Position numbers and translations under genes: made by a program | Shown here: positions 4,433-34,124 of the stretch, in pieces | Layout of the letters: each line of letters starts with the position of its first letter | Position numbering within the stretch: the stretch's first letter is position 1 | Origin: a virus | Reading direction: 5' to 3' (one strand) | DNA: 35,009 nt | IMG/VR virus record: IMGVR_UViG_3300032053_008651 | Coordinates: 1 to 35,009 of that record | The notes under the pieces: generated by a model | What the model saw: the letters and a program-made list of their open reading frames with translations, nothing else | What the model was told of the DNA's origin: nothing | Database searches by the model: none

Positions 4433-4461
4433 AATCTATCATGTGAGGCTGTGGTGTTGCA
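4433..4461 (-). promoter_or_regulatory. Promoter TGCAAC-N17-TAGATT of the ligase operon
   Basis: TGA precedes the -10 (4433-4438); AGATCT then separates it from the ligase ATG. -35-like box at 4456-4461. Confidence 0.7.
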
Positions 4462-4471
4462 CAGCGGGGTT

Positions 4472-6487: not shown

Positions 6488-6516
6488 ATTTTACCAGGTT
6501 TCAGGGTCGACTTACA
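6488..6516 (-). promoter_or_regulatory. Promoter TGTAAG-N17-TAAAAT
   Basis: TGG before the -10; TAGATC then separates it from the ATG at 6481. Leaderless. Confidence 0.7.
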
Positions 6517-6531
6517 CCACGTCGACGGAAT

Positions 6532-6738: not shown

Positions 6739-6767
6739 ATCCTATCACATGCCTCGGCGAACTTGCA
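6739..6767 (-). promoter_or_regulatory. Promoter TGCAAG-N17-TAGGAT
   Basis: TGA before the -10; TAGATC then the ATG at 6732. Leaderless. Confidence 0.7.
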
Positions 6768-6969
6768 CCGTTTCGATGACAATCGCCGTGCCGTTCGTCG
6801 CGAGTGCCTTCACGCGCATGTTCTGCAGGTGATCGTACGCGGCACCGTGCACCACGTCCTCATCGGTGTTTTCGACGATGAGGCCCGCGTCCGTGAGTGC
6901 CTTCGCGATGAGTAGCGCGAGCGTGGTCTTTCCCGCCGCCGCGCTGCCAGAAACCGTCACCTTCAACAT
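6745..6969 (-). CDS. Mini P-loop protein, 74 aa
   Basis: The N-terminus contains a good Walker A (VSGSAAAGKTT, residues ~6-16) followed by a helix. The chain ends after 74 residues without an obvious Walker B aspartate (IVIETVQV is the only candidate strand). Small P-loop proteins like this occur in phages; the fold resembles the start of nucleoside-monophosphate kinases. It could bind ATP without acting alone. Leaderless start. Confidence 0.75.
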   Translation of the reverse strand: MLKVTVSGSAAAGKTTLALLIAKALTDAGLIVENTDEDVVHGAAYDHLQNMRVKALATNGTAIVIETVQVRRGM

Positions 6970-6975: not shown

Positions 6976-7004
6976 ATCCTATCATGGAACGGCCAGGATT
7001 TGCA
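6976..7004 (-). promoter_or_regulatory. Promoter TGCAAA-N17-TAGGAT
   Basis: TGA before the -10; TAGATC then the ATG at 6969. Leaderless. Confidence 0.7.
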
Positions 7005-7034
7005 CCGTTTCACTAATGAAAGTGCTTTTCAATA

Positions 7035-7570: not shown

Positions 7571-7858
7571 TTAAATCATACCACTATCAGTGGTGAGCTT
7601 ACACAACCTTTTGAGGTTGGGCTCCCTGTGAATAACGTGACAGTGTGACAACTCAGACGCGCTCTTGAAGAACACGTTATAACCGTGGCGTCCTCGCCAT
7701 GCATCGATCGTGTGAAGTTTGCACATGCCCGTCGCCTCGTTATATTCGACGAGAACTGACATCGAGTGTTTGAAATAGACGCTGTTGATCGGATAGTTCG
7801 AGTACGTGTACCCGACTACGATCGGGCTTGGGCCCTGTTCGCGATAGTGCGTTCCCAC
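7571..7858 (-). CDS. Hypothetical protein, 95 aa
   Basis: GTG start at 7858, one base after the upstream TAA and with no ribosome-binding site, so probably translated by coupling. Contains MSVLVEYNEATGMCKLHTI and a Tyr/His-rich composition suggesting beta strands. No family recognised. Confidence 0.65.
   Translation of the reverse strand: MGTHYREQGPSPIVVGYTYSNYPINSVYFKHSMSVLVEYNEATGMCKLHTIDAWRGRHGYNVFFKSASELSHCHVIHREPNLKRLCKLTTDSGMI
7575..7603 (-). promoter_or_regulatory. Promoter TGTAAG-N17-TATGAT
   Basis: TGG before the -10; TTAATC then the ATG at 7568. Lies at the 3' end of the upstream gene. Leaderless. Confidence 0.7.
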
Positions 7859-8132: not shown

Positions 8133-8161
8133 ATCCTACCACGAACCGTCGGTGTCTTGCA
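8133..8161 (-). promoter_or_regulatory. Promoter TGCAAG-N17-TAGGAT
   Basis: TGG before the -10; TAGATC then the ATG at 8126. Lies within the last codons of the 8136-8429 gene. Leaderless. Confidence 0.7.
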
Positions 8162-8429
8162 CCTTCGCGAGATACGGCGCGTTCACGGGCGTTTCCTCGT
8201 AGAACTTACGCTCCTCGTCGGTGAACTTCGTGAGGTAGTCGTTCCACTCCTCGAAGATCTCATCGACCTCGGCGACCTCGATCGCCGAATCGAGGCGACG
8301 GCGAGCGCGGACGGTGATGTCCTTCGCGTAGCGTCCGACGGAGCTACGAGCGCCGTTGACAACGTCGAAATCGTGGCCGCGGTAGCTGAAGCATGCGCGG
8401 AGATTCTGATGTGCTTTTCGAAGTCCCAT
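8136..8429 (-). CDS. Hypothetical protein, 97 aa
   Basis: MGLRKAHQNLRACF...; has a clear ribosome-binding site (GAGGA, 6 bases before the ATG), unlike its leaderless neighbours, so it is read from the 8699 transcript. Rich in Glu/Asp and Arg; likely helical. Function unknown. Confidence 0.75.
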   Translation of the reverse strand: MGLRKAHQNLRACFSYRGHDFDVVNGARSSVGRYAKDITVRARRRLDSAIEVAEVDEIFEEWNDYLTKFTDEERKFYEETPVNAPYLAKVQDTDGSW

Positions 8430-8705: not shown

Positions 8706-8734
8706 AATATATCAGGTTCAGCGTGGAACTTGCA
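8706..8734 (-). promoter_or_regulatory. Promoter TGCAAG-N17-TATATT
   Basis: TGA before the -10; GAGATC then the ATG at 8699. Leaderless. Confidence 0.7.
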
Positions 8735-8738
8735 CCGT

Positions 8739-9035: not shown

Positions 9036-9064
9036 ATCCTATCATTGATCCACCTGGACTTACA
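9036..9064 (-). promoter_or_regulatory. Promoter TGTAAG-N17-TAGGAT
   Basis: TGA before the -10; TAGATC then the ATG at 9029. A palindrome (9071-9090) lies just upstream of the -35-like box. Confidence 0.7.
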
Positions 9065-9100
9065 CAATCCTTATTGAAAAGAGCTTTCAACAGGAAATAA

Positions 9101-11535: not shown

Positions 11536-11709
11536 TCACGGACAAACGCTAAAAGCTTTTCGATGCTTCACAGTGAGTTTCTTACACGACTTACACGTTG
11601 CGGAGGTGCTATCATCGGCACTGAAACCGAAGAGGCGAAACACACGACGAATGAACACACTCTTCGCACAAACAGGAAGTCCGTCGGACGAAAGGAGGTG
11701 CACCTTCAT
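11536..11709 (-). CDS. Short Cys-containing basic protein, 57 aa
   Basis: MKVHLLSSDGLPVCAKS...; CKSCKK near residue 40 plus two other cysteines may bind zinc. Net basic. The start codon lies six bases after a -10 box (leaderless). The stop overlaps the -35 region of the MoxR promoter. Confidence 0.65.
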   Translation of the reverse strand: MKVHLLSSDGLPVCAKSVFIRRVFRLFGFSADDSTSATCKSCKKLTVKHRKAFSVCP

Positions 11710-11715: not shown

Positions 11716-11744
11716 AATCTACCATGGTGGGCAGCCGTGTTACA
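11716..11744 (-). promoter_or_regulatory. Promoter TGTAAC-N17-TAGATT
   Basis: TGG before the -10; TAGATC then the ATG at 11709. Leaderless. Confidence 0.65.
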
Positions 11745-11961
11745 CAGCTTTGACCCAAGTTTCTGGTTCAAAGATTCGCTTGGGATCGCTTGGGTCAGCA
11801 GCGCGAATGGCGAAAGTGTTCCCACGCTGGTACGTGAGTTCGATACGAGATCCCGCACTGAAGCGCGAGATGCACCGCGGGACGACGGGAACGTTATCGA
11901 TTGTGACATACGCAAGGTGTTCGATGCCGCTACAAATAGTGCGAGTGACTGTTGTTGCCAT
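11740..11961 (-). CDS. Hypothetical protein, 73 aa
   Basis: MATTVTRTICSGIEHLAYV...; strand-rich, ending EPETWVKAV, a style like a small Sm- or SH3-like fold. The ATG at 11961 is preferred; a GTG 45 bases upstream is also open. No ribosome-binding site is seen before either. TATTTA lies 4 bases before the ATG, a possible but non-standard -10. Confidence 0.6.
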   Translation of the reverse strand: MATTVTRTICSGIEHLAYVTIDNVPVVPRCISRFSAGSRIELTYQRGNTFAIRAADPSDPKRIFEPETWVKAV

Positions 11962-12941: not shown

Positions 12942-12947
12942 ACTATA
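12942..12947 (-). promoter_or_regulatory. Extended -10 (TGG-TATAGT), no clear -35
   Basis: Seven bases before the ATG at 12934. No TGNAAG at the 17-base position, so weaker than the main family. Lies inside the end of the region-4-like gene. Confidence 0.45.
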
Positions 12948-13254
12948 CCATTCGCTCACGCCGCTGGGCCTCGACGATATGCAGAAGGTCAGCAATTCCG
13001 TGCTGGAAGCCGGGATCCTTCGCAATCTGATCGATGCGCTTCTCGTCGAGTTCGAGCTTCCACTGCTTCGAAAGGCTCTTGGCGAACTTCCGCATCACCC
13101 TGAGCACGTAGTTGCGTGCAGACGAGTGGTTCATATTGAACCCGAGCTCGGTCATCGTGTCAGCGATTTCACGATAGTTGACGCCCTCATCGTCAGCGAC
13201 GGTTGCGTAACCTCGGTCAACACGTGTGCCTCTACGAAGTGCCATCTCATTCAT
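12943..13254 (-). CDS. HTH protein resembling free sigma-70 region 4.2, 103 aa
   Basis: Residues 25-60 align by eye with sigma region 4.2: NYREIADTM matches the first HTH helix (consensus LEEVGKxF), and NHSSARNYVLRVMRKFAK matches the recognition helix and tail (consensus TRERIRQIEAKALRKLR), with a 4-residue longer turn. Arg, Met/Leu and Arg-Lys positions coincide. The C-terminal ~40 residues are helical and charged. It lies in the same operon as a sigma factor that lacks exactly this part, so the two may work together; that is inference. It could also be an unrelated DNA-binding regulator. Confidence 0.65.
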   Translation of the reverse strand: MNEMALRRGTRVDRGYATVADDEGVNYREIADTMTELGFNMNHSSARNYVLRVMRKFAKSLSKQWKLELDEKRIDQIAKDPGFQHGIADLLHIVEAQRRERMV

Positions 13255-13823: not shown

Positions 13824-13961
13824 TTAGCCAACACTTCCGGCCTTCTTCCTTGCGTATACGCTGTCAGTGATCTTGAGTGTCGTCTTCCAACCGACATACG
13901 CACCCGCGGCGAAAGCAAGTCCGATGCCGACCGTCACACCCATGGTAACCCACTTGATCAT
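13824..13961 (-). CDS. Small transmembrane protein, 45 aa
   Basis: MIKWVTMGVTVGIGLAFAAG... forms one Gly/Ala-rich membrane helix followed by a basic tail. The ATG overlaps the sigma-factor stop (ATGA), so translation is probably coupled. Followed by a second small membrane protein gene. Confidence 0.65.
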   Translation of the reverse strand: MIKWVTMGVTVGIGLAFAAGAYVGWKTTLKITDSVYARKKAGSVG

Positions 13962-14854
13962 GTGAGACCTTTCCCAGACATCACCTGATTGACTTCCTCT
14001 TCTGTGATCGGATAGTCGGTGGAGTTCTTGCTGTCCTCGCAGAGGCCGAAGCGCAGGCGTAGGATCGCTGCTTCCTTCGCGGACAGGCTTCCAAGCACGT
14101 CTCGAGTGAGCTCAAGAAGCTGCTTCTCAGCAACATTCTCGAAAGGATCGCAGCCAGGACGCTGGTCCTCGACCTTGTCCTCGATGGTGTCGCCCTCGCC
14201 GCTCGAGGAGAGCGGCTGCTGGAGCGAGATCGTTCCGCGACCAGAGTGAACAGTCGCCTTGACAACAGTGTCGCTTGCACCGATGAGAACGCGCAGCTCT
14301 TCAGTCGTGGGCTCGCAACCCATCGTCTCGCGGTATTCCTCCGCGGCCTGCATCATCTTGCGCTGGACTGTCGCGGCGTGCGCCGGGAGACGAATCATGC
14401 GCTTGCGCTTTAGAACGTGCTGTCCGATCGCCTGCTTGATCCACCACGTAGAGTACGTGGAGAACCGAAAGCCCTTCTCCCACTTGAAGCGATCGATGGA
14501 CTTCATAAGCCCGATGTTTCCCTCCTGAATGAGATCTTCGATCGGGAGGTTGTGTCCCTTGTATTGCTTCGCGATCGAGACCACGAGACGCAGGTTGCAC
14601 TCAACGAGCTTCTTGCGGACAGCGATCGCTTCAGGCGTCGATTCCGCGACGATGATGTCACCGTTCTCATCAACCTTACGCCCAGCACAGTACGCCTTGA
14701 AGAGCTCGACGACCTCGGGGTGCTTCAACTGCGGAAAGCGATGAAGCGCATTGAGATACGAGCCGACGATGTTCTGCTGCAGGTCAGAGCCGACCTCTTT
14801 CTTCAAAGCAACAGCGTTTCGCTTCCTCGAAGGTTCCCAGTTTGTCGTAGTCAT
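13958..14854 (-). CDS. Phage sigma-70-family factor lacking region 4.2, 298 aa
   Basis: Regions 1.2-2 are strong: NLRLVVSIAKQY (87-98), IEDLIQEGNIGLMKSIDRF (105-123, core binding), FRFSTYSTWWIKQAI (129-143, -10 melting and recognition). Region 3 follows (~150-215). Region 4.1 (LGSLSAKEAAILRLRFG, 254-270) is present. The protein then ends 18 residues after YPITEEEVNQ, so the -35 recognition helix of region 4.2 is missing. The stop overlaps the next start, so a simple late frameshift is not evident. ATG 14854 has GAGGTGG upstream and overlaps the preceding stop. Confidence 0.9.
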   Translation of the reverse strand: MTTTNWEPSRKRNAVALKKEVGSDLQQNIVGSYLNALHRFPQLKHPEVVELFKAYCAGRKVDENGDIIVAESTPEAIAVRKKLVECNLRLVVSIAKQYKGHNLPIEDLIQEGNIGLMKSIDRFKWEKGFRFSTYSTWWIKQAIGQHVLKRKRMIRLPAHAATVQRKMMQAAEEYRETMGCEPTTEELRVLIGASDTVVKATVHSGRGTISLQQPLSSSGEGDTIEDKVEDQRPGCDPFENVAEKQLLELTRDVLGSLSAKEAAILRLRFGLCEDSKNSTDYPITEEEVNQVMSGKGLT

Positions 14855-15927: not shown

Positions 15928-15956
15928 AGAGTATCACGGTTCGTTCGAACCTTGCA
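15928..15956 (-). promoter_or_regulatory. Promoter TGCAAG-N17-TACTCT of the sigma operon
   Basis: TGA before the -10; a 29-base leader with GGAGGA follows. Likely transcribes 15898 down through the sigma factor and the region-4.2-like gene. Confidence 0.7.
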
Positions 15957-16146
15957 CTCTACGTTCGTTGTTGGCTTTCGCCACCGGGTTGTGTTCGTAG
16001 TAGTTCGAGAGCGTGAGATAAGCGAGCGTCCACTTCAGGTCGCGTTCAGCCTTCCACGCAGCCTTGTAAATTTCGACATCGCAAAGTGCTTTGTCGAGCA
16101 TGCGCTCGATGCAATCGAGTTGAGAGGGCGTGTAGCGTTCAGCCAC
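15934..16146 (-). CDS. Hypothetical protein, 70 aa
   Basis: GTG 16146 (VAERYTPSQLDCIERM...) overlaps the upstream gene by 8 bases. All-helical appearance, Ala/Trp/Tyr-rich in the middle. Its last codons contain the -35-like box of the sigma-operon promoter. Confidence 0.65.
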   Translation of the reverse strand: MAERYTPSQLDCIERMLDKALCDVEIYKAAWKAERDLKWTLAYLTLSNYYEHNPVAKANNERRVQGSNEP

Positions 16147-17097: not shown

Positions 17098-17214
17098 TCA
17101 GTGTGATTCGCTTCGGAGCCGACATGCATCGCGAAGCGCTCGAACACGACGTCCGCCGCACTTGTGAGAGCGACCGCGCCAGGAGCGTCGTTCGGAATTG
17201 TGGTGTCTGCTCAT
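17098..17214 (-). CDS. Short Arg-rich protein, 38 aa
   Basis: MSRHHNSERRSWRGRSHKC... with about a third arginine and two cysteines. Supported mainly by its strong leaderless promoter, as the reading frame alone is short. Could bind nucleic acid. Confidence 0.5.
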   Translation of the reverse strand: MSRHHNSERRSWRGRSHKCGGRRVRALRDACRLRSESH

Positions 17215-17220: not shown

Positions 17221-17249
17221 ATCTTACCAGGTTTCGCTGAGGACTTTCA
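17221..17249 (-). promoter_or_regulatory. Promoter TGAAAG-N17-TAAGAT
   Basis: TGG before the -10; TAGATC then the ATG at 17214. Overlaps the stop of the next gene. Leaderless. Confidence 0.65.
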
Positions 17250-17423
17250 CCGAGTTGCGAGAAGAAACTCGACGCCGATGTCGACGTACACGTCGTCCTT
17301 CACATCGTGACGTTCGTCACGGACGTGTTTTGCGCCCTTGACCACGAGGGCTCGGATGACACCAAGCTCCTGCTCCGTGAGGGTCACGGTGACAGTGCCG
17401 TCCTTTTTGCTTTTCTTGATCAT
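17247..17423 (-). CDS. Small protein, 58 aa
   Basis: MIKKSKKDGTVTVTLTEQE... then a helix and a VYVDIGVEFLL strand. Similar to its upstream neighbour (17433-17633): both share 'DGxVxVxxTExE/D' followed by a helix and a final strand, so they are probably paralogues. Leaderless start. Confidence 0.7.
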   Translation of the reverse strand: MIKKSKKDGTVTVTLTEQELGVIRALVVKGAKHVRDERHDVKDDVYVDIGVEFLLATR

Positions 17424-17429: not shown

Positions 17430-17458
17430 ATCTTACCTGGTTTCGCCGACGTCTTGCA
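17430..17458 (-). promoter_or_regulatory. Promoter TGCAAG-N17-TAAGAT
   Basis: AGG rather than TGn before the -10; TAGATC then the ATG at 17423. Leaderless. Confidence 0.65.
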
Positions 17459-17633
17459 CAGATTCGAGGAACTTTGCGCCGACCTCGGCGCGGATGACGA
17501 CGAGCTTGTTGTGCGTATGCAGTTGCGCGGCGTTTACGTCGAGACCCGACGACACAAGTTCCTTCAGAAACTCGAAATCATTCTCGGTAAACGAGACCAT
17601 CACGACACCGTCTGCATTCGTAATCTTGACCAT
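17433..17633 (-). CDS. Small protein, 66 aa
   Basis: MVKITNADGVVMVSFTEND...; paralogue-like to 17247-17423 (see there). Leaderless start; function unknown. Confidence 0.7.
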   Translation of the reverse strand: MVKITNADGVVMVSFTENDFEFLKELVSSGLDVNAAQLHTHNKLVVIRAEVGAKFLESVQDVGETR

Positions 17634-17639: not shown

Positions 17640-17668
17640 ATCCTATCATGGATCCACCAGGACTTACA
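17640..17668 (-). promoter_or_regulatory. Promoter TGTAAG-N17-TAGGAT
   Basis: TGA before the -10; TAGATC then the ATG at 17633. Lies in the last codons of the next gene. Leaderless. Confidence 0.7.
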
Positions 17669-17882
17669 CTTTTTTCGCACAAATAGGATTTACCTGCGGG
17701 GTGAGGCACTGTGCAACTTTCAAGACAGGTTGAACCTCCCAGTGACCTTCGTACGCAAGGGCGTCACGTACGTCAGATGGCATTTCCCACTTGCCGTTCT
17801 TGTCATTTTTGTCCATCTGTCCAAGTGCACGGAGCACTCTTTCGAGGAACTCATCGACCTTTTGCAGCTCTTCTTTTGTCAT
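17664..17882 (-). CDS. Hypothetical protein, 72 aa
   Basis: MTKEELQKVDEFLERVL... helical N-terminal half, then a Trp/Val-rich segment. ATG 17882 forms a TGATG overlap with the upstream stop; an ATG 12 bases earlier is also in frame. Confidence 0.65.
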   Translation of the reverse strand: MTKEELQKVDEFLERVLRALGQMDKNDKNGKWEMPSDVRDALAYEGHWEVQPVLKVAQCLTPQVNPICAKKV

Positions 17883-18615: not shown

Positions 18616-18644
18616 ATCATACCAGGTCTTGGTTTGCTATTACA
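18616..18644 (-). promoter_or_regulatory. Promoter TGTAAT-N17-TATGAT
   Basis: TGG before the -10; TTGATC then the ATG at 18609. Lies in the 3' end of the next gene. Leaderless. Confidence 0.7.
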
Positions 18645-18910
18645 CTTCTGCATATCGACAATCGATTGCGATGTCGTTTGAAGTCTTCGACGACAATGTC
18701 GAGCTCTTCTTCCCACTCATTCTCATCGAAAGGAGGAGACCAACGACCAACGATGTGATCGTTTAGTTGAAGTTCAGCACGACATGCTAACGGAGCCCAC
18801 TTGAGCATGCGAGTGACCCGCTCGACCGCGAGAACCACCCACGTGAATCCCGATTTACCGTTGGGATACGACACCATGTCGCCCGGGCGTAGGTCTGCTA
18901 ATCGCGGCAT
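18617..18910 (-). CDS. Hypothetical protein, 97 aa
   Basis: ATG 18910 (MPRLADLRPGDMVSYPNG...) is one base after the upstream stop. DLRPGDMVSY...FTWVVLAVER suggests a small beta barrel; the C-terminus is acidic then basic. No family recognised. Confidence 0.7.
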   Translation of the reverse strand: MPRLADLRPGDMVSYPNGKSGFTWVVLAVERVTRMLKWAPLACRAELQLNDHIVGRWSPPFDENEWEEELDIVVEDFKRHRNRLSICRSVIANQDLV

Positions 18911-19433: not shown

Positions 19434-19462
19434 ATCTTACCAGGTTTCAGGGTTGACTTGCA
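19434..19462 (-). promoter_or_regulatory. Promoter TGCAAG-N17-TAAGAT
   Basis: TGG before the -10; TAGATC then the ATG at 19427. Close to the consensus. Leaderless. Confidence 0.75.
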
Positions 19463-19469
19463 CACTCTC

Positions 19470-20029: not shown

Positions 20030-20058
20030 ATCTTACCAGGTTTCCTTGGTGACTTACA
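20030..20058 (-). promoter_or_regulatory. Promoter TGTAAG-N17-TAAGAT
   Basis: TGG before the -10; TAGATC then the ATG at 20023. Leaderless. Confidence 0.75.
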
Positions 20059-20263
20059 CTGCGCTCGTGATCGATGCGTTGTTTTCGCCCATCTTCGCCC
20101 ACTCCTTCACAAGGAAATCGGCGTCAGATTCGGACATCACGACGGGATCCAGGCCCACTCGAATGGACGGTTCGTCGGGATGAAACGCAGACCCGGGCGC
20201 AGTCACCAGGTATTGGAGGTAGAGAGTACGCCCGTTTGCGTCCTTGATAGTGACATTGACCAT
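20054..20263 (-). CDS. Hypothetical protein, 69 aa
   Basis: MVNVTIKDANGRTLYLQYL...; strands followed by a helix (SDADFLVKEWAKMG). Same layout as 17247-17633. Leaderless start; function unknown. Confidence 0.7.
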   Translation of the reverse strand: MVNVTIKDANGRTLYLQYLVTAPGSAFHPDEPSIRVGLDPVVMSESDADFLVKEWAKMGENNASITSAV

Positions 20264-20269: not shown

Positions 20270-20298
20270 ATCCTATCAGGATTCGCCGTGGACTTACA
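20270..20298 (-). promoter_or_regulatory. Promoter TGTAAG-N17-TAGGAT
   Basis: TGA before the -10; TAGATC then the ATG at 20263. Leaderless. Confidence 0.75.
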
Positions 20299-20328
20299 CC
20301 GTTTTCGAGACTATTTTTCGCCGTTCTT

Positions 20329-20730: not shown

Positions 20731-20759
20731 ATTGTACCATGGCCGGTTCTATGTTTGCA
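20731..20759 (-). promoter_or_regulatory. Promoter TGCAAA-N17-TACAAT
   Basis: TGG before the -10; GAAACC then the ATG at 20724. Sits directly after the last tRNA. Leaderless. Confidence 0.7.
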
Positions 20760-20766
20760 CTGCTTT

Positions 20767-20840
20767 TGGTTGGCGCAGCTGGAGTCGAACCAGCATCATG
20801 AGGGTCAAAGTCTCAGGTCCTGCCTTTGGACGATGCGCCA
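20767..20840 (-). tRNA. tRNA-Gln(TTG)
   Basis: Complete acceptor (TGGCGCA/TGCGCCA), anticodon loop CTTTGAC, T-loop TTCGACT, encoded CCA. Confidence 0.85.
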
Positions 20841-20867
20841 ATGAAATGAAAACTTGCGTTCCTAGAG

Positions 20868-20938
20868 ATGGCCCGGAGGGATTCGAACCCCCATCATTTG
20901 CGTCAGAAGCAAAGGTACTGCCTTTGTACGACGGGCCA
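20868..20938 (-). tRNA. tRNA-Gln(CTG)
   Basis: Acceptor TGGCCCG/CGGGCCA; 5-bp anticodon stem with loop TTCTGAC; no encoded CCA. Confidence 0.85.
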
Positions 20939-20943
20939 GAGAA

Positions 20944-20965
20944 ATCGCCGATCGAAATCGGCGAT
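20944..20965 (-). other. Perfect hairpin with TTCG loop between tRNAs
   Basis: Nine base pairs (ATCGCCGAT/ATCGGCGAT) around TTCG on the minus strand. Probably an RNA spacer hairpin or processing signal in the array transcript. Confidence 0.6.
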
Positions 20966-20968
20966 CAG

Positions 20969-21040
20969 CAGGAGCTACGGGACTCGAACCCGTGTGTTTC
21001 GTTTTGGAGACGAACATCCTAGCCGCTGAATGAAACTCCT
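20969..21040 (-). tRNA. tRNA-Trp(CCA)
   Basis: Acceptor AGGAGTT/AGCTCCT; anticodon stem TTCGT/ACGAA with loop CTCCAAA; T-loop TTCGAGT. No encoded CCA. Confidence 0.85.
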
Positions 21041-21094
21041 GTGATGCACTGATGATTTTGAGAGGATCCAACAACCTCGGGTTTTCACACCCAG

Positions 21095-21167
21095 CGATCG
21101 TAGCCGGAATCGAACCGAGCCTCACACCATAGACAGTGGTGCTGCATCACCTGATGCACATACGACC
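21095..21167 (-). tRNA. tRNA-Asp(GTC), U37
   Basis: Acceptor GGTCGTA/TACGATC; anticodon stem CACCA/TGGTG with loop CTGTCTA, so position 37 is U instead of a purine. The T-stem has one mismatch. Abuts the 5'-half element at 21168. Confidence 0.65.
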
Positions 21168-21244
21168 ATATCCGGCTGCTCTAGCCAATTGAGCTACGTC
21201 GCGGTATTAGCGCGCCGGTGGGACTCGAACCCACATCTACCGGG
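21168..21244 (-). tRNA. tRNA-like element with halves in permuted order
   Basis: Read 5' to 3', this is first a 3' half (CCCGG, variable bases, T-arm GTGGG-TTCGAGT-CCCAC, acceptor strand CGGCGCG), then TAATAC, then a 5' half (acceptor strand CGCGACG, TA, D-arm GCTC-loop-GAGC, A, anticodon stem GCCGG). The acceptor strands pair 6 of 7, and GCCGG pairs with CCGGT. The 77-base element exactly fills the space between two tRNA-Asp genes. It may be a circularly permuted tRNA or two recombination remnants. Confidence 0.45.
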
Positions 21245-21315
21245 CGAAGACGACGGGAATCGAACCCGCATAAGGCTGATAGACAATCAGCTGACCTCCA
21301 ATGGTCCACGTCTCC
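21245..21315 (-). tRNA. tRNA-Asp(GTC), U37, second copy
   Basis: Acceptor GGAGACG/CGTCTTC; D-arm GACC/GGTC; anticodon stem GCTGA/TCAGC with loop TTGTCTA (U37); T-loop TTCGATT. All arms pair. Confidence 0.75.
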
Positions 21316-21327
21316 AAAGTTTCTCTG

Positions 21328-21462
21328 TGCCAACCCGTGGTATCGAGCCACGCTGTCTCTCCTGTTTGACAGCATTACAGCGATGAATGATGCTGGACGT
21401 TGATGTCTCGGTGTGAGCCCGGCGCATGAAGCCGGCGGGTTCCCTGTGCTCCCTCGGTTGGC
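21328..21462 (-). tRNA. Aberrant tRNA-like element with CAT anticodon arm
   Basis: GCCAACC at the 5' end pairs perfectly with GGTTGGC at the 3' end, and CCGGC-TTCATGC-GCCGG forms an anticodon arm. About 66 bases lie between it and the T-arm (CGTGG-CTCGATA-CCACG). Either the variable region carries an insertion, or a broken 5' fragment precedes a degenerate second tRNA (possible CAA anticodon). Function doubtful. Confidence 0.35.
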
Positions 21463-21581
21463 GTAATTCGACGTTTCACTTTCTATCTCATTCGTTTCAA
21501 GGGCGTTAGCCCGTTGTGGTCCGCTGCTGGATGCTTGGTCTTACGACTCCGGCTCGATAGTTACCACGTCTCAAAGACCAG
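21463..21581. other. Spacer within tRNA array
   Basis: No tRNA or convincing ORF seen. Contains a short GGGC-TAAC-GCCC hairpin on the minus strand. Confidence 0.5.
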
Positions 21582-21654
21582 TGGAGCACATGGGACTCGA
21601 ACCCACCACCTCTACGATGCGAACGTAGCGCTCTCCCAGATGAGCTAGTGCCCC
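21582..21654 (-). tRNA. tRNA-Ala(CGC)
   Basis: Acceptor GGGGCAC/GTGCTCC; stem CTACG/CGTAG with loop TTCGCAT; standard D- and T-arms. Confidence 0.9.
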
Positions 21655-21802
21655 AGATTCGAGGGGCTCTTTTCGCAGAGCGCAGTGGGGGTTCACATTC
21701 CTGTGAACTGCTTGCGTTACGATCAGTCTTCCTCGTGCGATCGGTACCGATCACATTTGTACGCCTGTGAAACTGACTTTCCGATGTCAGCCACGGCGTT
21801 AG

Positions 21803-21878
21803 CAGGGTCAGTTGGAGTCGAACCAACATACTGGCGTGCTTGATGCCCGCTTGCTCTGACCAATTGAGCTACAGCCCT
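21803..21878 (-). tRNA. tRNA-like gene, anticodon ambiguous
   Basis: D-arm and T-arm (GTTGG-TTCGACT-CCAAC) are normal, but the anticodon region has two extra bases. It folds best as GCGGGC-ATCAA-GCACGC, so the anticodon could be CAA (Leu) or TCA, and position 33 is unclear. The acceptor has one C-A mismatch. Confidence 0.45.
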
Positions 21879-21947
21879 GTATTTCGATCTCTCTCGAACT
21901 GCCACACCATTATGGTAGGTGTCACCCCGTTTATGCCACGGAAGCGG

Positions 21948-22020
21948 TGGAGCTTACGGGATTCGAACCCGTCGCCTCCTGCGTGCAAAGCAGGCGCTCT
22001 CCCAAATGAGCTAAAGCCCC
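21948..22020 (-). tRNA. tRNA-Ala(TGC)
   Basis: Acceptor GGGGCTT/AAGCTCC; stem CCTGC/GCAGG with loop TTTGCAC; standard arms. Confidence 0.9.
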
Positions 22021-22138
22021 AAAATCAGCATTCAACGGTTGTATGAAACCTCGGTTAGACCGCCAAATACCTCGACACTTCACCTTCAAAAACCCAGGCT
22101 CCCGGGCTCAGCACCTGAGGTGCAGTTACCGTGTCTTG

Positions 22139-22211
22139 TGGAGCAGAAGGGATTCGAACCCTCGACCTCTTCGCAGCCAGCGAAGCGCTCTCCCAGTTGA
22201 GCTACTGCCCC
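22139..22211 (-). tRNA. tRNA-Ala(GGC), U37
   Basis: Acceptor GGGGCAG/CTGCTCC; stem CTTCG/CGAAG with loop CTGGCTG, so position 37 is U. Otherwise canonical. Confidence 0.8.
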
Positions 22212-22357
22212 AAACGATTGGTTACTGAGATCCCTGCAATCAAGCTGGACGTCTTGTCACCTACTTATCCTATTGGTTGGCGCTCACAACGCCCAGTCAA
22301 AACAAAATTGGTTGTAGAATCACAGTTTCTTATCACCGTTCACAGATGTGAATTGGG

Positions 22358-22433
22358 TGGTCGACCCGGAGGGACTCGAACCCTCGCTCTCTAGCGAGTC
22401 ATGCTAGCATCCTTGCCGCTGGACGACAGGTCG
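22358..22433 (-). tRNA. tRNA-Val(GAC), U37
   Basis: Acceptor CGACCTG/CGGGTCG; stem CTAGC/GCTAG with loop ATGACTC (U37); encoded CCA. Confidence 0.75.
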
Positions 22434-22454
22434 TTGGCCGGACTTTCCCGGCTG

Positions 22455-22514
22455 TCAAAGCGCTGATCGAGCGCGCTCTCCCCATTGTTTCACATGTTCG
22501 TGGGTAAGGGCCAT
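22455..22514 (-). CDS. Possible 19-aa peptide
   Basis: MALTHEHVKQWGERARSAL, with GGGGA ten bases upstream. Follows the zinc-finger gene inside the tRNA array. Too short to be sure. Confidence 0.3.
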   Translation of the reverse strand: MALTHEHVKQWGERARSAL

Positions 22515-22538
22515 CTTGTTGTGTCCCCACCCATCTCG

Positions 22539-22640
22539 TCACTTCCCTGGCCGCTTGTTGCGGTAGTGCCTGCGCCAGCAGGGTCGGCACATATAGAGCC
22601 TTCCCAACAGGTCAGACGCAATCTTACAGAACTTGCACAT
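22539..22640 (-). CDS. 33-aa zinc-finger mini-protein in the tRNA array
   Basis: An excellent ribosome-binding site (AAAGGAGG, 6 bases before the ATG) precedes MCKFCKIASDLLGRLYMCRP. Two Cys pairs (CKFC and CRPC) spaced about 12 residues apart form a plausible zinc site, and the C-terminus is strongly basic. Located between tRNA-Val and tRNA-fMet, so it is co-transcribed with tRNAs. RNA binding is a reasonable guess only. Confidence 0.7.
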   Translation of the reverse strand: MCKFCKIASDLLGRLYMCRPCWRRHYRNKRPGK

Positions 22641-22737
22641 TGCGAACCTCCTTTCTTACGATTGGAGGGTCGTTACGGCGGGTGTCCTTCGTTGATCATG
22701 GGTTGAATTCCTTTGCGTGTCGGTTAGGTCCGTGTCG

Positions 22738-22814
22738 TGGTTGCAGGTGTAGGATTCGCGCCTACTGATTTCCGGATTATGGGCCCGGCGAGCCTCTTTT
22801 GCTCCATTACTGCG
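22738..22814 (-). tRNA. Initiator-type tRNA-Met(CAT), divergent
   Basis: Shows the initiator hallmarks: C1-A72 mismatch (5' CGCAG, 3' CTGCA-ACCA), TG before D-stem GAGC/GCTC, and a GC-rich anticodon stem. Length is 77 with CCA. Oddities: C at position 33 (loop CCCATAA) and two unpaired acceptor positions. Confidence 0.65.
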
Positions 22815-22815
22815 G

Positions 22816-22887
22816 TAGCGGGTACCTGATTTGAACAGGGTCTTAAGGTTATGAGCCTTACGAGTTGCCAGATTACTCCAACCCGCT
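22816..22887 (-). tRNA. tRNA-Met or tRNA-Ile2(CAT)
   Basis: Acceptor AGCGGGT/ACCCGCT; stem TAAGG/CCTTA with loop CTCATAA; T-loop TTCAAAT. Ends one base before the initiator tRNA. Whether C34 is modified to read ATA cannot be told. Confidence 0.8.
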
Positions 22888-22905
22888 ATGTCTAAATATA
22901 TTCCG

Positions 22906-22980
22906 TGGTGGGTTCGGCGGTAGTCGAAACCGCGTCTCTGCGCTTAAAAGGCGTGACTCTGCCACTTGAGTTACGAACCC
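22906..22980 (-). tRNA. tRNA-Lys(TTT)
   Basis: Acceptor GGGTTCG/CGAACCC; loop CTTTTAA; T-arm GCGGT-TTCGACT-ACCGC; encoded CCA. Two upper anticodon-stem pairs are mismatched. Confidence 0.7.
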
Positions 22981-23064
22981 GTATCGTTTTCACTTTCCAC
23001 GCTCTGGGTGCATCCGCACTCAGGCTACGTTTTACACTCGGCACACCGAGATTGAGTTACTAAC

Positions 23065-23138
23065 TGGAGCGCGAAGGAGGAGTTGAACCACCGACCTGAC
23101 AACTAAAAGCCGCCTGCTCTGCACTGAGCTACTCGCGC
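23065..23138 (-). tRNA. tRNA-Lys(TTT), second copy
   Basis: Acceptor GCGCGAG/TTCGCGC; loop CTTTTAG in a G-T-rich stem; D-loop only six bases and lacking GG; encoded CCA. Confidence 0.65.
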
Positions 23139-23259
23139 ATAATCGGAATACGTCCGATCTCGTCATTTTCACTTCCGCCGCGGTATTGCGCCGCGTCTTT
23201 CCGATTCTAGGTCGGACGTGCAACTTTTACACTTGCCTCATGAGTTACTCAATTCAAGG

Positions 23260-23333
23260 TGGGGAAGGAGGGAATTAAACCCCCGACCTGTCGGCGTATT
23301 ATGCCGACTGCTCTTTCTCTGAGCTACTTCCCC
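23260..23333 (-). tRNA. tRNA-like gene with 19-base anticodon arm
   Basis: Acceptor GGGGAAG/CTTCCCC. The anticodon arm is GTCGGC-ATAATAC-GCCGAC: a 6-bp stem (or 5-bp stem with 9-base loop). Reading U33 gives AAT (Ile), an unusual A34 anticodon in bacteria. T-loop TTTAATT lacks C56. Confidence 0.45.
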
Positions 23334-23393
23334 ATGATGTGGCAGGATACCCGCTGCCTACCCGGTTCTGCGAAGGACTAGTACGTTTTCGCA

Positions 23394-23471
23394 TGGTGGG
23401 GGAGGATGGGATTGAACCACCGACCTTCGGGCTTTTTACACCCGCTGCTCTAGTCTCTGAGCTACTCCCCC
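23394..23471 (-). tRNA. tRNA-like gene with 19-base anticodon arm
   Basis: Acceptor GGGGGAG/CTCCCCC, encoded CCA. Anticodon region CGGGT-GTAAAAA-GCCCG: AAA (Phe) if U33 is taken inside a 7-base loop, GTA (Tyr) if the loop is nine bases. Cannot be settled by eye. Confidence 0.45.
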
Positions 23472-23555
23472 GTGATGTATCAGTTTCACTTTCACGCCCC
23501 TCTGGGCGACTGACTTTCCAATAGTCCACCAAGGCATGTGTTTGTATAAGCTAAG

Positions 23556-23633
23556 TGCCTCGGGCAGGAATCGAACCTGCATCTGTTTTCGCATGTTTTC
23601 TAAGAACACGTTTGAGTTACTGACGATACTTCG
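23556..23633 (-). tRNA. Degenerate tRNA, possibly Leu(TAG)
   Basis: Clear anticodon arm (GTGTT-CTTAGAA-AACAT), 12-base variable region, T-arm GCAGG-TTCGATT-CCTGC and 3' acceptor strand CCGAGGC. No matching 5' acceptor strand (GCCTCGG) or D-arm is found before the next tRNA begins, so the 5' half is lost or very diverged. Confidence 0.4.
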
Positions 23634-23706
23634 TGAGTCGCACGGGAGTCGAACCCGCAACGTCCTGGGTAAGAACCAGGTGCTCTGCCAATTGAGCTAA
23701 CGACTC
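23634..23706 (-). tRNA. tRNA-Lys(CTT)
   Basis: Acceptor GAGTCGT/GCGACTC; stem CCTGG/CCAGG with loop TTCTTAC; canonical D- and T-arms. Confidence 0.9.
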
Positions 23707-23733
23707 ATATACGATATGATTTTGTTCTTTCAG

Positions 23734-23806
23734 TCGGTTCAACGGGATTCGAACCCGCACCTTTCTCCTTAAGAGGGAGCTATGCAACCAGTAACACCTT
23801 GAACCG
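23734..23806 (-). tRNA. tRNA-Lys(CTT), second copy
   Basis: Acceptor CGGTTCA/TGAACCG; anticodon arm CTCC-CTCTTAA-GGAG; T-loop TTCGAAT. The D-arm is irregular. Confidence 0.65.
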
Positions 23807-23972
23807 TTGAGGGGAAAGATTTTAGCGTGGTTACCTCCCAACTCCACGCGATGATAAGCTTCTGCTGAAAGTTTCGACCCATCGAAGTCTTTGCTTTCAT
23901 GTTGGCGAGACTCTCAGAGCAAGTAGCTTTTGGGCCTCACGACCCGTACGCCTTTTCGTCTTTGAATCTCAG
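23807..23972. other. Spacer with a possible small ORF
   Basis: A minus-strand frame from an ATG near 23900 reads MKAKTSMGRNFQQKLIIAW but continues into the adjacent tRNA and has no ribosome-binding site. I do not call it a gene. Confidence 0.3.
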
Positions 23973-24056
23973 CTCACACGGTAGGAATCGAACCTACGTT
24001 AGGATTTCTCCGTTACTGGTTAACAGCCAGCTGCCTGTCCTCTAGGCTACATGTGA
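23973..24056 (-). tRNA. tRNA-Asn(GTT) with long variable arm
   Basis: Acceptor TCACATG/CGTGTGA; stem GCTGG/CCAGT with loop CTGTTAA; discriminator G. The variable region is 17 bases and contains GGA-GAAA-TCC, a small hairpin with a GNRA loop, as in class II tRNAs (Ser, Leu, Tyr). Asn tRNAs are normally class I. Confidence 0.7.
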
Positions 24057-24065
24057 ATGTCGAAA

Positions 24066-24141
24066 GAGATGTTCGAGTGAATGAAGCACGAATGATATCA
24101 ACGATCTTTGCTTGTAGGCTTCATTCTGATGAACATCTCAG
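24066..24141 (-). repeat. Long imperfect inverted repeat between tRNAs
   Basis: GAGATGTTC pairs with GAACATCTC and, inside it, AATGAAGC pairs with GCTTCATT, separated by a 5x5 internal loop. The stem would be ~17 bp around a ~30-base loop. May be a processing hairpin or a decayed element. Confidence 0.55.
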
Positions 24142-24223
24142 CTGCCGCGGCAGGAGTCGAACCTGCATCATCCTGATTAACAGTCAGGCGAATTACCTTA
24201 GCTTACGCTTATCCGACACGGCA
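24142..24223 (-). tRNA. tRNA-Asn(GTT) with enlarged D-loop
   Basis: Acceptor TGCCGTG/CGCGGCA; stem CCTGA/TCAGG with loop CTGTTAA; T-loop TTCGACT. About nine extra bases in the D-arm include a mini hairpin GCG-TAA-GC. Discriminator G. Confidence 0.65.
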
Positions 24224-24231
24224 ATGTCGAG

Positions 24232-24301
24232 CTCTCGGGGAAGGGATTGAACCTTCATCTCCCGCGTGAAGCCGCGGTGCTCTAACTTAAGCTACCCAAG
24301 A
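24232..24301 (-). tRNA. tRNA, possibly Glu(TTC)
   Basis: Acceptor TCTTGGG/CCCGAGA; T-arm GAAGG-TTCAATC-CCTTC. The anticodon stem pairs as CCGC/GCGG around an 8-base loop GGCTTCAC. TTC (Glu) fits if position 33 is C; TCA is the alternative. Confidence 0.45.
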
Positions 24302-24376
24302 ATGAACGAGTGCTTCTCTGCACACGTTTTGGAACGCAAATTTTCAAGGATCGTAGAGAACGATTGTTCTCTTCGG

Positions 24377-24460
24377 TGATGCGCCAGGGAATCGAACCCT
24401 GCTGGCCCTAAGGGCGCGTGGGTTACAACCACGCCCGTCTCCATACCGGTCTAGCACACC
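24377..24460 (-). tRNA. tRNA-Tyr(GTA)
   Basis: Acceptor GGTGTGC/GCGCATC; stem CGTGG/CCACG with loop TTGTAAC; class II variable arm GCCC-TTA-GGGC; T-loop TTCGATT. Confidence 0.85.
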
Positions 24461-24642
24461 ATGAGTTTAAACGAAAGATGCCGAAGAAGTTTCCTTCCTC
24501 GGCGACTGCTGATGGCATCCCATCCTTCTCAGTCACTCCGGAAGCCGGAGCGACGAGGCGCTCCAGTTCACGTATCGATATTTGCAACAGCGGCATCTTG
24601 CCACTGCTTTTGACGATAATTTTTCTGTGCGTAAGTGTTCAT
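24423..24642 (-). other. Two short frames, possible broken small gene
   Basis: ATG 24642 opens MNTYAQKNYRQKQWQDAAV and stops after 24 codons. A second frame from 24596 (MPLLQISIRELERLVAPA...) runs 57 codons but ends inside tRNA-Tyr. A one-base shift near 24580 would join the basic start to the helical segment. No ribosome-binding site for either. Confidence 0.35.
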
Positions 24643-24669
24643 TTGAATTTTCTTGTTTGAGAATCTTCG

Positions 24670-24742
24670 TCGGACCGGAGGGAGTCGAACCCCCGTAACA
24701 TGTGTATCAGACATGCGCTCTAACCGTCTAAGCTACGGTCCG
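24670..24742 (-). tRNA. tRNA-Ile(GAT)
   Basis: Acceptor CGGACCG/CGGTCCG; stem CATGT/ACATG with loop CTGATAC; standard arms. First tRNA of the array. Confidence 0.9.
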
Positions 24743-28694: not shown

Positions 28695-28723
28695 AACGTA
28701 TCACATGCAGCCGACGATTTGCA
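28695..28723 (-). promoter_or_regulatory. Promoter TGCAAA-N17-TACGTT
   Basis: TGA before the -10; AGACTA then the ATG at 28688. Leaderless. Confidence 0.65.
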
Positions 28724-28727
28724 CTGC

Positions 28728-29560: not shown

Positions 29561-30134
29561 TGCTTAACTGTACACTGGACCCGGACTTATTTGCACCGAG
29601 GTCAGCTGTATCATCTGTCTTCAGCGAGTCATCTTCAGGAGCGTCAAGAGCCGCGGTGCCGTCCTCGCCGTCAGCGGCTGGTGGCGAAGCAGTGGGATCT
29701 TCTGGGCCTTTTGGCGGGTGAAATCCTAGTTGTGCGTACGGGTCAGCATCGCGGAAAGGGTCACCGTCCCCACCTGCAGGTCGTCCTGGCGATCGGTACC
29801 ACGTGCCTTGAATGTTGTCAGTGCCGGTGTGATCTCTGACCATGTCGAATGGTGTGTAGAACCCATTGATCTCCGGAGTCTCACCAGGTGTGGGTGTTTC
29901 AGGTTCGCCGTCTGCTTCTTGAAGAAAGTATTTTCTGATCTCTTTGACGAGGTCTTCGTCTGGATCGCCGAGCGCAGGACGATCCTCGGCATCAGTCAAA
30001 TGATCAGCGATCTTTTCTGGATCGCCGAGCGAATCGATGCCGTTCCCAGCGTCGTCGCCCACCATCCGATCGTCGGTCTCAAAGGCCAACACCTCGCGGA
30101 TGACACGACGTAGCGAGCTAAGTTTTAGTTTCAC
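29535..30134 (-). CDS. Acidic low-complexity protein with LRxxIRExL N-terminus, 199 aa
   Basis: N-terminus SSLRRVIREVL forms an amphipathic helix; the remainder is rich in Asp, Gly, Pro and Glu and likely disordered. GTG 30134 follows a -10 box by 5 bases (leaderless GTG). Resembles structural or scaffold-associated phage proteins in style only. Confidence 0.65.
   Translation of the reverse strand: MKLKLSSLRRVIREVLAFETDDRMVGDDAGNGIDSLGDPEKIADHLTDAEDRPALGDPDEDLVKEIRKYFLQEADGEPETPTPGETPEINGFYTPFDMVRDHTGTDNIQGTWYRSPGRPAGGDGDPFRDADPYAQLGFHPPKGPEDPTASPPAADGEDGTAALDAPEDDSLKTDDTADLGANKSGSSVQLSNGSQKEKP
29567..29595 (-). promoter_or_regulatory. Promoter TGCAAA-N17-TACAGT
   Basis: No TGn, but exact spacing; TAAGCA then the HNH ATG at 29560. 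Lies within the 29535-30134 coding region. Confidence 0.6.
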
Positions 30135-31810: not shown

Positions 31811-31839
31811 ATTCTACCACGTCTCACCGCACCATTTCA
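31811..31839 (-). promoter_or_regulatory. Promoter TGAAAT-N17-TAGAAT
   Basis: TGG before the -10; GATAGT then the ATG at 31804. Overlaps the end of the glycosyltransferase gene. Leaderless. Confidence 0.7.
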
Positions 31840-33141
31840 CTCGTCCCCAGTGCCCTCAAAAAGTTTTACGTGACGAAGTGCGATCTTTTCCCACGTGTTT
31901 TCGCTGAGGTATTCGACTTGTTTTTCGACCTGCGCTTTTCGTGCAAGCGTGTTTGAAAACATCTGGTCAAGAGCATCAGCGATTTCTTCTGGGCTGTCAG
32001 CTTTCAACGTGGGAAGGTCGGAGAAGTGATTGACGGTCGTCGTGATCACAGGCGACATCTTCGACATTGCGAGCCGCGCTGCACCAGATGCGCCAAAGAC
32101 CTCGTGTGCCGGGTGCGAGACATACGGAAAGACAACGACTTGATTCGTTCTCATGTATGAATCTAGTGCTGTGTCAGACTGGTAGCCTCTGATGATCGCA
32201 ACGTTGTCCTTGACGCCCAACTCATCGACAAGCCTCATGAGCTCATCATAGTAGACCTGATGGTCGACCGCGCTGAATGCAGACTCACTGAAGAGCCCGG
32301 TGAAAAATACGTCGGGGTATTTGTCTCGTAGGATCGCAACTGCACGAATGCACTTCTCCCATCCCTTGTACCTGAACCCAAAGCCGAATTGCATGAAGGT
32401 ATGTCCACTCTTGTAGAAATTCCACAACCTCGAAGTATCTGTTACGGGCGCACAGCCGTGAGGCATGACATGGACAGGAGATGAAATTCCTTTTTCTACT
32501 TGCAGAACTGTTTTCGCTCCCTCAAGATGAACGATGATCTCTGGCATGCATGCTTCGACGATCGTCTTGTCACGGTGATGAAACACTGAGTGCATTGTGA
32601 CGATGACGTGGTAGTCGTCAAGCTGGCTCATGAGCGCAAGCCAGTGACGAGCGTTCGGCCAGATTCCAAACTCGTGTTGGATCCAAACGACGTCGGGGTC
32701 GTACTCTTTGATAGCGTCTGCAAGTTCAGTCAACGGTCCGCCACGCTGCCAACACGAAACGATCTTCTCTGGGGGAACCAACGTGTCACCGACAATGTTG
32801 ATGGGGCTCGTGGGCGCACCATTCTTCTCGATGAACATCTTGAAGTCACCAAAGTGTTTCGCAACATGTGGGAATAGATTCTCACTGTATGTTGCGATAC
32901 CACACTGCATCTTCCAGTTGCCAACGAACGCTAGCTTGAGCTTGTTTGCGGCCGCGCGCTTTTGTCGTGGACGAAGCTTTCCGTTCTTTACACGAAAGTC
33001 AGTGATGAGAGCAGCATTGGAGACAGCGCTGTATTCTGTTGGAACTTCGACTACTTCAACGTGTGAACCGCTAGCGGCCATGAGCGCTGAAGAGACGACA
33101 AAAATGTTTCCCTTTTTTGATCCGACGTATCTGTTGCCCAC
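31837..33141 (-). CDS. GT4-family glycosyltransferase, 434 aa
   Basis: Transfers a sugar from a nucleotide sugar to a glycan or lipid. The GT-B fold is visible: KLKLAFVGNWKMQCGIATY (67-85) as the first Rossmann strand and glycine loop, and the C-terminal HEVFGASGAARLAMSKMSP with the catalytic-type Glu. The first ~65 residues are an extra N-terminal extension. GTG 33141 (VGNRYVGSKKG) has GGAAGTGAG upstream and follows the previous stop by 4 bases. Paired with a pyruvyltransferase. Confidence 0.85.
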   Translation of the reverse strand: MGNRYVGSKKGNIFVVSSALMAASGSHVEVVEVPTEYSAVSNAALITDFRVKNGKLRPRQKRAAANKLKLAFVGNWKMQCGIATYSENLFPHVAKHFGDFKMFIEKNGAPTSPINIVGDTLVPPEKIVSCWQRGGPLTELADAIKEYDPDVVWIQHEFGIWPNARHWLALMSQLDDYHVIVTMHSVFHHRDKTIVEACMPEIIVHLEGAKTVLQVEKGISSPVHVMPHGCAPVTDTSRLWNFYKSGHTFMQFGFGFRYKGWEKCIRAVAILRDKYPDVFFTGLFSESAFSAVDHQVYYDELMRLVDELGVKDNVAIIRGYQSDTALDSYMRTNQVVVFPYVSHPAHEVFGASGAARLAMSKMSPVITTTVNHFSDLPTLKADSPEEIADALDQMFSNTLARKAQVEKQVEYLSENTWEKIALRHVKLFEGTGDE

Positions 33142-33145
33142 GTTC

Positions 33146-34114
33146 TCACTTCCGTCCCATGATGTCAACGACCCGATCGGCTAGGTCGTCAAACACTTGT
33201 TTCGGAGCGCGATGCGGTTCAATGCTTGTGCTCATTGAATCTTCAATCGCCGCGATCATCTGAGCCTTGTAAGAACCATAGAATGAAATGTGCGTGCCAC
33301 GAGAGGGCGTTGCATTCTTCAGCTTGTCATGGTGATCGATAGAAATGTACGGAACACCAGCAAGTTCCGACAGGATGATTCCGTGGTAGCGTTGAGTGAC
33401 AACGACCTGGTGAAACTGCATCAACTTGAGCGTCTCAGACGCGTCTTCGAGCGAACACCTGAAGATGTTGCGTGCTAGGTTACCACGTCGAGCCATCCTG
33501 CTGAGGATCTCGCCCGCTGCCCATGCATCTTCCTGGCTTGAATTGCTGCAAGACAGAAGAAACGTCGTCGGAATCTTGAGGTCAACGAAGTAGTCAAGGA
33601 CTTGCGAGAACTCATCCTTGAAGTGTTCCCACGCAACGTGCTTCCAGTGTGGATCTTTCCACGTCGGAACAGTCTCAACGTTCGGAACGACGAGAATGCC
33701 ATTTGGCGTAACGTCTGGGTGTCGTTCAACGCCAGGAAGCGAAAGGACCAGGTCGGGCATGTCCTGCTCACGGATTGCAACGACCTGTGCGATCGCCATC
33801 AGTTTTCTGTGGATCGGGTGAACTTCGGTTTCAGCTCCCACGCCGATGTAAAAGACTGGGATTTGGCCTGATAGAAGCACATCAAGTGCCTCAGGAGTAA
33901 TCGCAGGCTCGCCGTACAGGATACTACCGCCACCAAAGATGACGCCATTCACGTATTCACCGGTCTCTACATCGGTCAAATAACCTTCCGTGATGTGACC
34001 GACGAAACTCAGAGTGACGCCGCGAGGCTTAAACATACCGACGAGAGCTTGTCTCATCAGTTCATCTCCAATGTTTCCTCGCCCGTACCAACCATATACT
34101 AGCGCAGTTGTCAT
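33146..34114 (-). CDS. Polysaccharide pyruvyl transferase family protein, 322 aa
   Basis: Family signature: GWYGRGNIGDE (8-18) at the N-terminus, FGGGS (60-64) and QRYHGIILSELAGVP (241-255) near the C-terminus. Members (CsaB, WcaK type) add pyruvate ketals to surface polysaccharides, or belong to related glycan enzymes. AAGGA lies 8 bases before the ATG. Forms a two-gene unit with the GT4 enzyme, suggesting glycan modification of host surface or virion. Confidence 0.85.
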   Translation of the reverse strand: MTTALVYGWYGRGNIGDELMRQALVGMFKPRGVTLSFVGHITEGYLTDVETGEYVNGVIFGGGSILYGEPAITPEALDVLLSGQIPVFYIGVGAETEVHPIHRKLMAIAQVVAIREQDMPDLVLSLPGVERHPDVTPNGILVVPNVETVPTWKDPHWKHVAWEHFKDEFSQVLDYFVDLKIPTTFLLSCSNSSQEDAWAAGEILSRMARRGNLARNIFRCSLEDASETLKLMQFHQVVVTQRYHGIILSELAGVPYISIDHHDKLKNATPSRGTHISFYGSYKAQMIAAIEDSMSTSIEPHRAPKQVFDDLADRVVDIMGRK

Positions 34115-34124
34115 GGAGTGTTCC

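Follow-up and report, generated by a model that had tools for sequence, protein, structure and literature searches.

Sigma regions 2 and 4 are normally parts of a single chain, and this tether helps to set the geometry between the -35 and -10 elements of a promoter. The locus described here is a phage sigma-70 gene that stops before region 4.2. The gene is found on the minus strand (13958..14854, with an alternative start GTG at 14863) of a 35,009-nucleotide stretch of viral DNA, IMG/VR record IMGVR_UViG_3300032053_008651, which is called the window below, and its translation has 298 aa and terminates in LRLRFGLCEDSKNSTDYPITEEEVNQVMSGKGLT. Region 2 (PF04542) was matched at residues 83-152 (14399..14608, minus strand) with 78.6 bits and 3e-22, which confirms the assignment as a phage sigma-70 protein made in a preliminary description of this DNA. 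Region 3 (PF04539) corresponds to residues 166-230 (14165..14359, minus strand) with 21.4 bits, under the curated cut-off of 25.3, and this region is conserved in the alignment of relatives. The chain has no complete region 4. As had been described, it stops short of region 4.2, with a stub of region 4.1 (14036..14098, minus strand) that matches Sigma70_r4 at positions 1-18 of 50 only, as it does in the relatives, and a search of the other frames and the rest of the 35-kb window gave no Sigma70_r4 match past position 18. In the place of region 4.2 there is a conserved C-terminal tail, YPITEEE...GxGLT (13958..14014, minus strand), recognized from the alignment of relatives and the survey of end points. 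The last eight residues, VMSGKGLT, directly follow YPITEEEVNQ, where the preliminary description had counted 18. The stop TGA and the next ATG overlap as ATGA (13958-13961), also as described, and the ORF that starts there (13824..13961, minus strand) encodes, as read from the sequence, 45 aa with a hydrophobic N-terminus.

The end point is old and is shared by the relatives of this sigma. A search for homologues ending at the same point, which the preliminary description had asked for, showed that the chain ends 29-35 residues past the start of RLRFG in all 90 related IMG/VR loci (65 distinct), and a sigma profile search added 78 further loci. A start codon overlaps or abuts the sigma stop in 47 of the 65 distinct loci. 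The nearest IMG/VR relatives, L001 and L002 (76% identical), have the terminus YPITEEEARMVLEAGTGLT, the same stop/start overlap and the same end; most of the relatives' sigmas terminate in a short conserved tail, GxGLT/R/K; and the sigmas of G044 and G048, which are 35-36% identical to that of the window, stop at the same point. Because the end point is kept in the relatives, including L001 and L002, a sequencing error or a recent truncation is ruled out, in agreement with the earlier reading of the stop, and no homologue was found with a full region 4.2 from which the present copy would differ only by an error near 13960, all 90 loci stopping short of it. In G048 and G044 (L102, L103), GroEL-like chaperonin genes were seen by eye directly upstream of the truncated sigma.

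The predicted promoters of the window contain both a -10 and a -35 element. Of the 12-mers that recur in the window, the commonest, CATGATCTAATC, corresponds in reverse complement to the stretch leading into minus-strand ATGs. On the gene strand the pattern consists of GTGNAA (with C, T or A as the fourth base), an 18-nt spacer, TAnnnT with TGn directly before it, and then an ATG, usually after 6 nt. With an ATG 4-8 nt downstream, GTGNAA-N18-TAnnnT has 22 exact occurrences in the window against 0.02 expected, and 28 against 0.46 expected when the start-codon condition is dropped; the N17 spacer occurs once and N16, N19 and N20 do not occur. Taking the A of the ATG as +1 puts both boxes at the usual -35 and -10 positions, and with the start codon at +1 the mRNAs made from these promoters look leaderless. 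The two elements that a cognate promoter would be predicted to have, -35 and -10, are therefore both present, and at the spacing of a sigma factor.

Predicted promoters of this form were found on the minus strand as GTGCAA-N18-TAGATT at 4433..4462 (ATG at 4426, of an ATP-dependent DNA ligase gene), GTGTAA-N18-TAAAAT at 6488..6517 (ATG at 6481), GTGCAA-N18-TAGGAT at 6739..6768, 6976..7005 and 8133..8162 (ATG at 6732, 6969 and 8126, respectively), GTGTAA-N18-TATGAT at 7575..7604 and 18616..18645 (ATG at 7568 and 18609), GTGCAA-N18-TATATT at 8706..8735 (ATG at 8699), GTGTAA-N18-TAGGAT at 9036..9065, 17640..17669 and 20270..20299 (ATG at 9029, 17633 and 20263) and GTGTAA-N18-TAGATT at 11716..11745 (ATG at 11709), as well as GTGAAA-N18-TAAGAT at 17221..17250 (ATG at 17214), GTGCAA-N18-TAAGAT at 17430..17459 and 19434..19463 (ATG at 17423 and 19427), GTGTAA-N18-TAAGAT at 20030..20059 (ATG at 20023), GTGCAA-N18-TACAAT at 20731..20760 (ATG at 20724), GTGCAA-N18-TACGTT at 28695..28724 (ATG at 28688), GTGCAA-N18-TACAGT at 29567..29596 (ATG at 29560) and GTGAAA-N18-TAGAAT at 31811..31840 (ATG at 31804). 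The nearest such site upstream of the sigma gene, GTGCAA-N18-TACTCT (15928..15957, minus strand), is promoter-like and has no start codon at +1.

When start codons served as the anchor and no motif was given in advance, a scan recovered GTGNAA at -36 and TAnnnT at -12, both in the window and in G001, G009, G017, G020 and G043, as well as a form with a spacer one base shorter in G029, so that the GTGNAA -35 box is common to six of the nine relatives tested, counting G029. The same scan detected no GTGNAA promoters in G022, G034 and G044, though these have both the truncated sigma and the region 4.2 protein described below. The fourth base of the -35 box varies by phage, being mostly C or T in the window and G001 and mostly A in G009 and G017, and the box recurs in phages of 41% to 59% G+C, a range which implies that they probably have different hosts.

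A separate protein carrying region 4.2 was found in the larger relatives. In G001, a 145-kb relative found from the sigma alone, a Sigma70_r4 search returned P0005, a protein of 94 aa encoded next to a PhoH-like gene and about 104 kb from the sigma. P0005 matches Sigma70_r4 (PF04545) at positions 12-50 with 35.5 bits, and has a cysteine-rich N-terminus followed by the HTH TLQKIGQIYDLTRMRICQIEKAIFEKIRK. Relatives of this protein, called here the Cys4-HTH family, are encoded in 182 IMG/VR stretches matching the search patterns. Their alignment (n=42) has as invariant positions four cysteines, a fifth Cys in the helix, N52, T64, L65, G69 and RMRICQIEK, the invariance of the last being inflated because part of this motif served as a search pattern. 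The recognition segment is TRMRICQIEK where RpoD has TRERIRQIEA; the two changed positions of the recognition helix, E to M and R to C, would fit a -35 box other than TTGACA. The family profile matches principal-sigma region 4 chains in the PDB (2.6e-7). RpoD models are the best match for the sigma in regions 2, 3 and 4.1, and primary-sigma models are matched by the Cys4-HTH protein in region 4.2; along the RpoD model NF004208 the sigma extends over 385-590 and P0005 over 586-617, and by this coverage the two read as halves of one molecule. In an AlphaFold model of P0005, residues 65-72 and 76-93 are helical, in the position of the HTH of region 4.2; the model has moderate confidence (mean pLDDT 73) and gave no useful PDB fold match with Foldseek or VIA-align.

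The Cys4-HTH gene may be under a different promoter class from the genes that it would serve. Upstream of it (L012-L041) no GTGNAA promoter was seen, and TTGTACA or GTATACC-like motifs are often present, which suggests another promoter class and a separate timing. Within the reach of tblastn, no stand-alone Cys4-HTH copy was found in 50,697 phage records; the weak matches in cultured phages correspond to region 4.2 of longer sigmas and were rejected as stand-alone partners, and two cultured jumbo phages with full-length sigmas have no stand-alone copy. The four Cys4-HTH loci in bacterial genomes are probably phage contigs binned with bacteria, since at least one of them is on a contig exactly as long as an IMG/VR phage contig.

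The truncated sigma is carried by 12 of the 50 records that have a Cys4-HTH protein, nearly all 12 being among the largest. When 23 large records were tested with Pfam models, the split pattern was found in all 12 that have an above-threshold region 2: the sigma spans Sigma70_r4 from 1 to about 18-22 (in one case to 31), and a separate frame of 84-190 codons spans it from 6-21 to 46-50. Regions 2 and 4.2 are thus on separate chains of one genome in 12 large relatives, and the separate gene, of about 90 aa, sits 40-270 kb from the sigma. In the list obtained with the sigma profile, all eight contigs of at least 130 kb also have the Cys4-HTH protein, an agreement not wholly independent, since part of the profile derives from those contigs. 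None of the 17 sigma-bearing contigs of 26-114 kb has it, which is expected from the distance between the two genes. The link between the two proteins rests on about a dozen large contigs. Three other large contigs, G026, G039 and G040, have the Cys4-HTH protein and no clear truncated sigma; these may be fragments.

Taken with the promoters, these observations bear on the view in the preliminary description that extended -10 promoters need less -35 contact. The extended -10 was borne out, as TGnTAnnnT is present; however, little need for -35 contact is not supported, given that GTGNAA is strict and keeps one spacing and that the large relatives encode region 4.2 in a gene of its own. So strict a -35 box calls for a protein that reads it, and with a region 4.2 gene present in the large relatives, the most likely reading is that the missing part is provided in trans and has not been dispensed with.

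Here it is proposed, with a probability of about 0.72, that the product of the gene is the larger of two chains that make up a sigma factor of the RpoD type, belonging to a clade of uncultured jumbo phages, with region 4.2 provided in trans. The larger chain, with regions 2, 3 and 4.1, would bind the core of the host RNA polymerase and read the extended -10. Region 4.2 would be contributed by the separate protein of about 90 aa, with its four-cysteine and probably metal-binding N-terminal part and its RpoD-like HTH, which would dock on region 4.1 of the sigma and/or on the beta flap and read the GTGNAA box. At many phage genes the two chains would then place the first transcribed base on the A of the ATG, and the resulting mRNAs would have no leader. 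We infer from the sequences that the sigma and the Cys4-HTH protein form one factor and that this factor reads the GTGNAA promoters; the partner gene of the window phage would lie outside the 35-kb fragment. This proposal has sequence-level support in the conserved end point, in the separate region 4.2 gene of large relatives and in the bipartite promoter of the window and most of the relatives tested. Counted against it are the absence of the partner gene from the window, together with its distance from the sigma in the relatives, and the lack of detectable GTGNAA promoters in G022, G034 and G044 alongside both proteins, as well as the three large contigs that have the Cys4-HTH protein and no clear sigma, and the closer linkage to the sigma of P0002, described next.

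The main rival to the Cys4-HTH protein as the -35 reader is a neighbour of the sigma gene, P0002, an HTH-like protein of 103 aa (12943..13254, minus strand), which is a candidate third component or rival region 4. Its family is found 0-0.7 kb downstream of the sigma and on the same strand in all 64 distinct loci with enough sequence, the most divergent included, and all 12 large genomes have it downstream of the sigma as well; its linkage to the sigma is far closer than that of the Cys4-HTH protein. In G026, G039 and G040 there is no confident match to P0002, with a weak short match in G039 only. Besides this linkage, the segment NYREIAD...MNHSSARNYVLRVMRKF resembles a helix-turn-helix by eye. 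However, family, structure and profile comparisons gave no confident match of P0002 to any sigma region 4 or HTH family, nor has it any profile similarity to the Cys4-HTH family, which, unlike P0002, matches RpoD region 4.2 directly. P0002 was therefore not accepted as a region 4 homologue, which has no database or profile support, and it is unlikely that P0002 is the missing -35 reader in place of the distant Cys4-HTH protein, or that both act together as that reader. It is somewhat easier to envisage, as a tentative extension of the two-chain factor against which the odds still lie, a three-component factor of truncated sigma, unlinked Cys4 region 4.2 protein and linked P0002 that would drive leaderless promoters genome-wide. 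If this were so, the recognition of -10 and -35 would have evolved and be regulated as separate genes, and -35 recognition could be controlled separately, by metal, redox state or timing.

A different role for the Cys4-HTH protein is suggested by bacteriophage T4, whose sigma gp55 acts together with gp33, a separate protein that binds the flap. The protein would be, accordingly, an independent activator or a gp33-like beta-flap coactivator and not a sigma subunit, and the truncated sigma would be gp55-like; the sigma and Cys4-HTH genes are also unlinked in the genome. The two systems are alike in having a phage sigma without region 4.2 and a separate small protein proposed to sit on the beta flap. 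However, gp33 holds the beta flap in the manner of sigma region 4 without being structurally related to that region, and on its own it does not bind DNA (PMC7892883). The small protein of the jumbo phages, in contrast, is a homologue of RpoD region 4.2, matching PF04545 and RpoD region 4 chains, and their promoters, unlike those of gp55/gp33, carry a -35 box, at sigma spacing. Either of these roles, independent activator or coactivator, is thus doubtful.

It is improbable, too, that a host sigma reads the GTGNAA promoters and that the truncated phage sigma acts otherwise, for example in core sequestration or at other promoters. In favour of this, G022, G034 and G044 have both proteins without such promoters; yet the same unusual -35 box is present in phages spread over the G+C range given above. 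Least probable is a reading along the lines of the preliminary description, in which extended -10 promoters are served by the truncated sigma alone and region 4.2 is dispensable; it agrees with the lack of region 4.2 in the sigma of all relatives examined and with TGnTAnnnT, but not with a -35 box at fixed spacing nor with a separate region 4.2 gene in large relatives.

Among known systems, the proposed two-chain factor can be compared with SigO-RsoA of Bacillus subtilis, a sigma made of two subunits, neither of which suffices alone; one carries sigma region 4 and the other region 2, and the two must cooperate at the same promoter (PMC10028694), as is proposed here. The chains of SigO-RsoA are sigma-4 and sigma-2 parts, whereas in the jumbo phages the cut is inside region 4, between 4.1 and 4.2; by its description, SigO-RsoA also differs from the jumbo phage system in that the latter has an RpoD-type sigma with region 3 and a Cys4 N-terminus on the region 4.2 chain. 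The accessible part of a survey of 224 jumbo phages reports single-HTH sigmas, RpoD-like sigmas and gp33 orthologues; its group 2 phages likewise carry sigma factors and have no RNA polymerase of their own, but the group 2 sigmas described in that part are complete RpoD-like or single-HTH proteins, with no mention there of a split within region 4 (PMC7824862). A 2026 jumbo phage review speaks, in its accessible part, of sigma homologues only (PMC13282480). As for bacterial RpoD/SigA (group 1), the resemblance lies in the matches of both chains to RpoD and primary-sigma models given above, but there are two genes and not one, the recognition helix is altered and the box is GTGNAA and not TTGACA. 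What sets the jumbo phage system apart from those compared is an RpoD-type sigma cut inside region 4 with the -35 box kept. A literature search that had most subscription journals beyond its reach found no paper on split phage sigma factors.

If the sigma is split inside region 4 with the geometry kept, the tether between the two parts would be dispensable. The split factor would be a natural two-key transcription switch, as well as an orthogonal promoter system with leaderless transcripts. With this proposal, two protein families that lack annotation also acquire a function that can be tested, and uncultured phages a promoter code that can be read.

Some other features were observed in these genomes. 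G001 has a second sigma, P0006, of 229 aa (L008 1483-2172; G001 near 132.9-133.6 kb), whose region 4 appears to be without the first HTH helix (RFGVPAQARVTSDDGVRERIMAIEAKALAKLK). In the window, 21 predicted tRNA genes are clustered at 20767-24742, one of them called SeC (anticodon TCA). Genes resembling those for glycosyltransferase, polysaccharide pyruvyl transferase and sulfatase-modifying factor are found in the window at 31837-34168 and 1488-2348.
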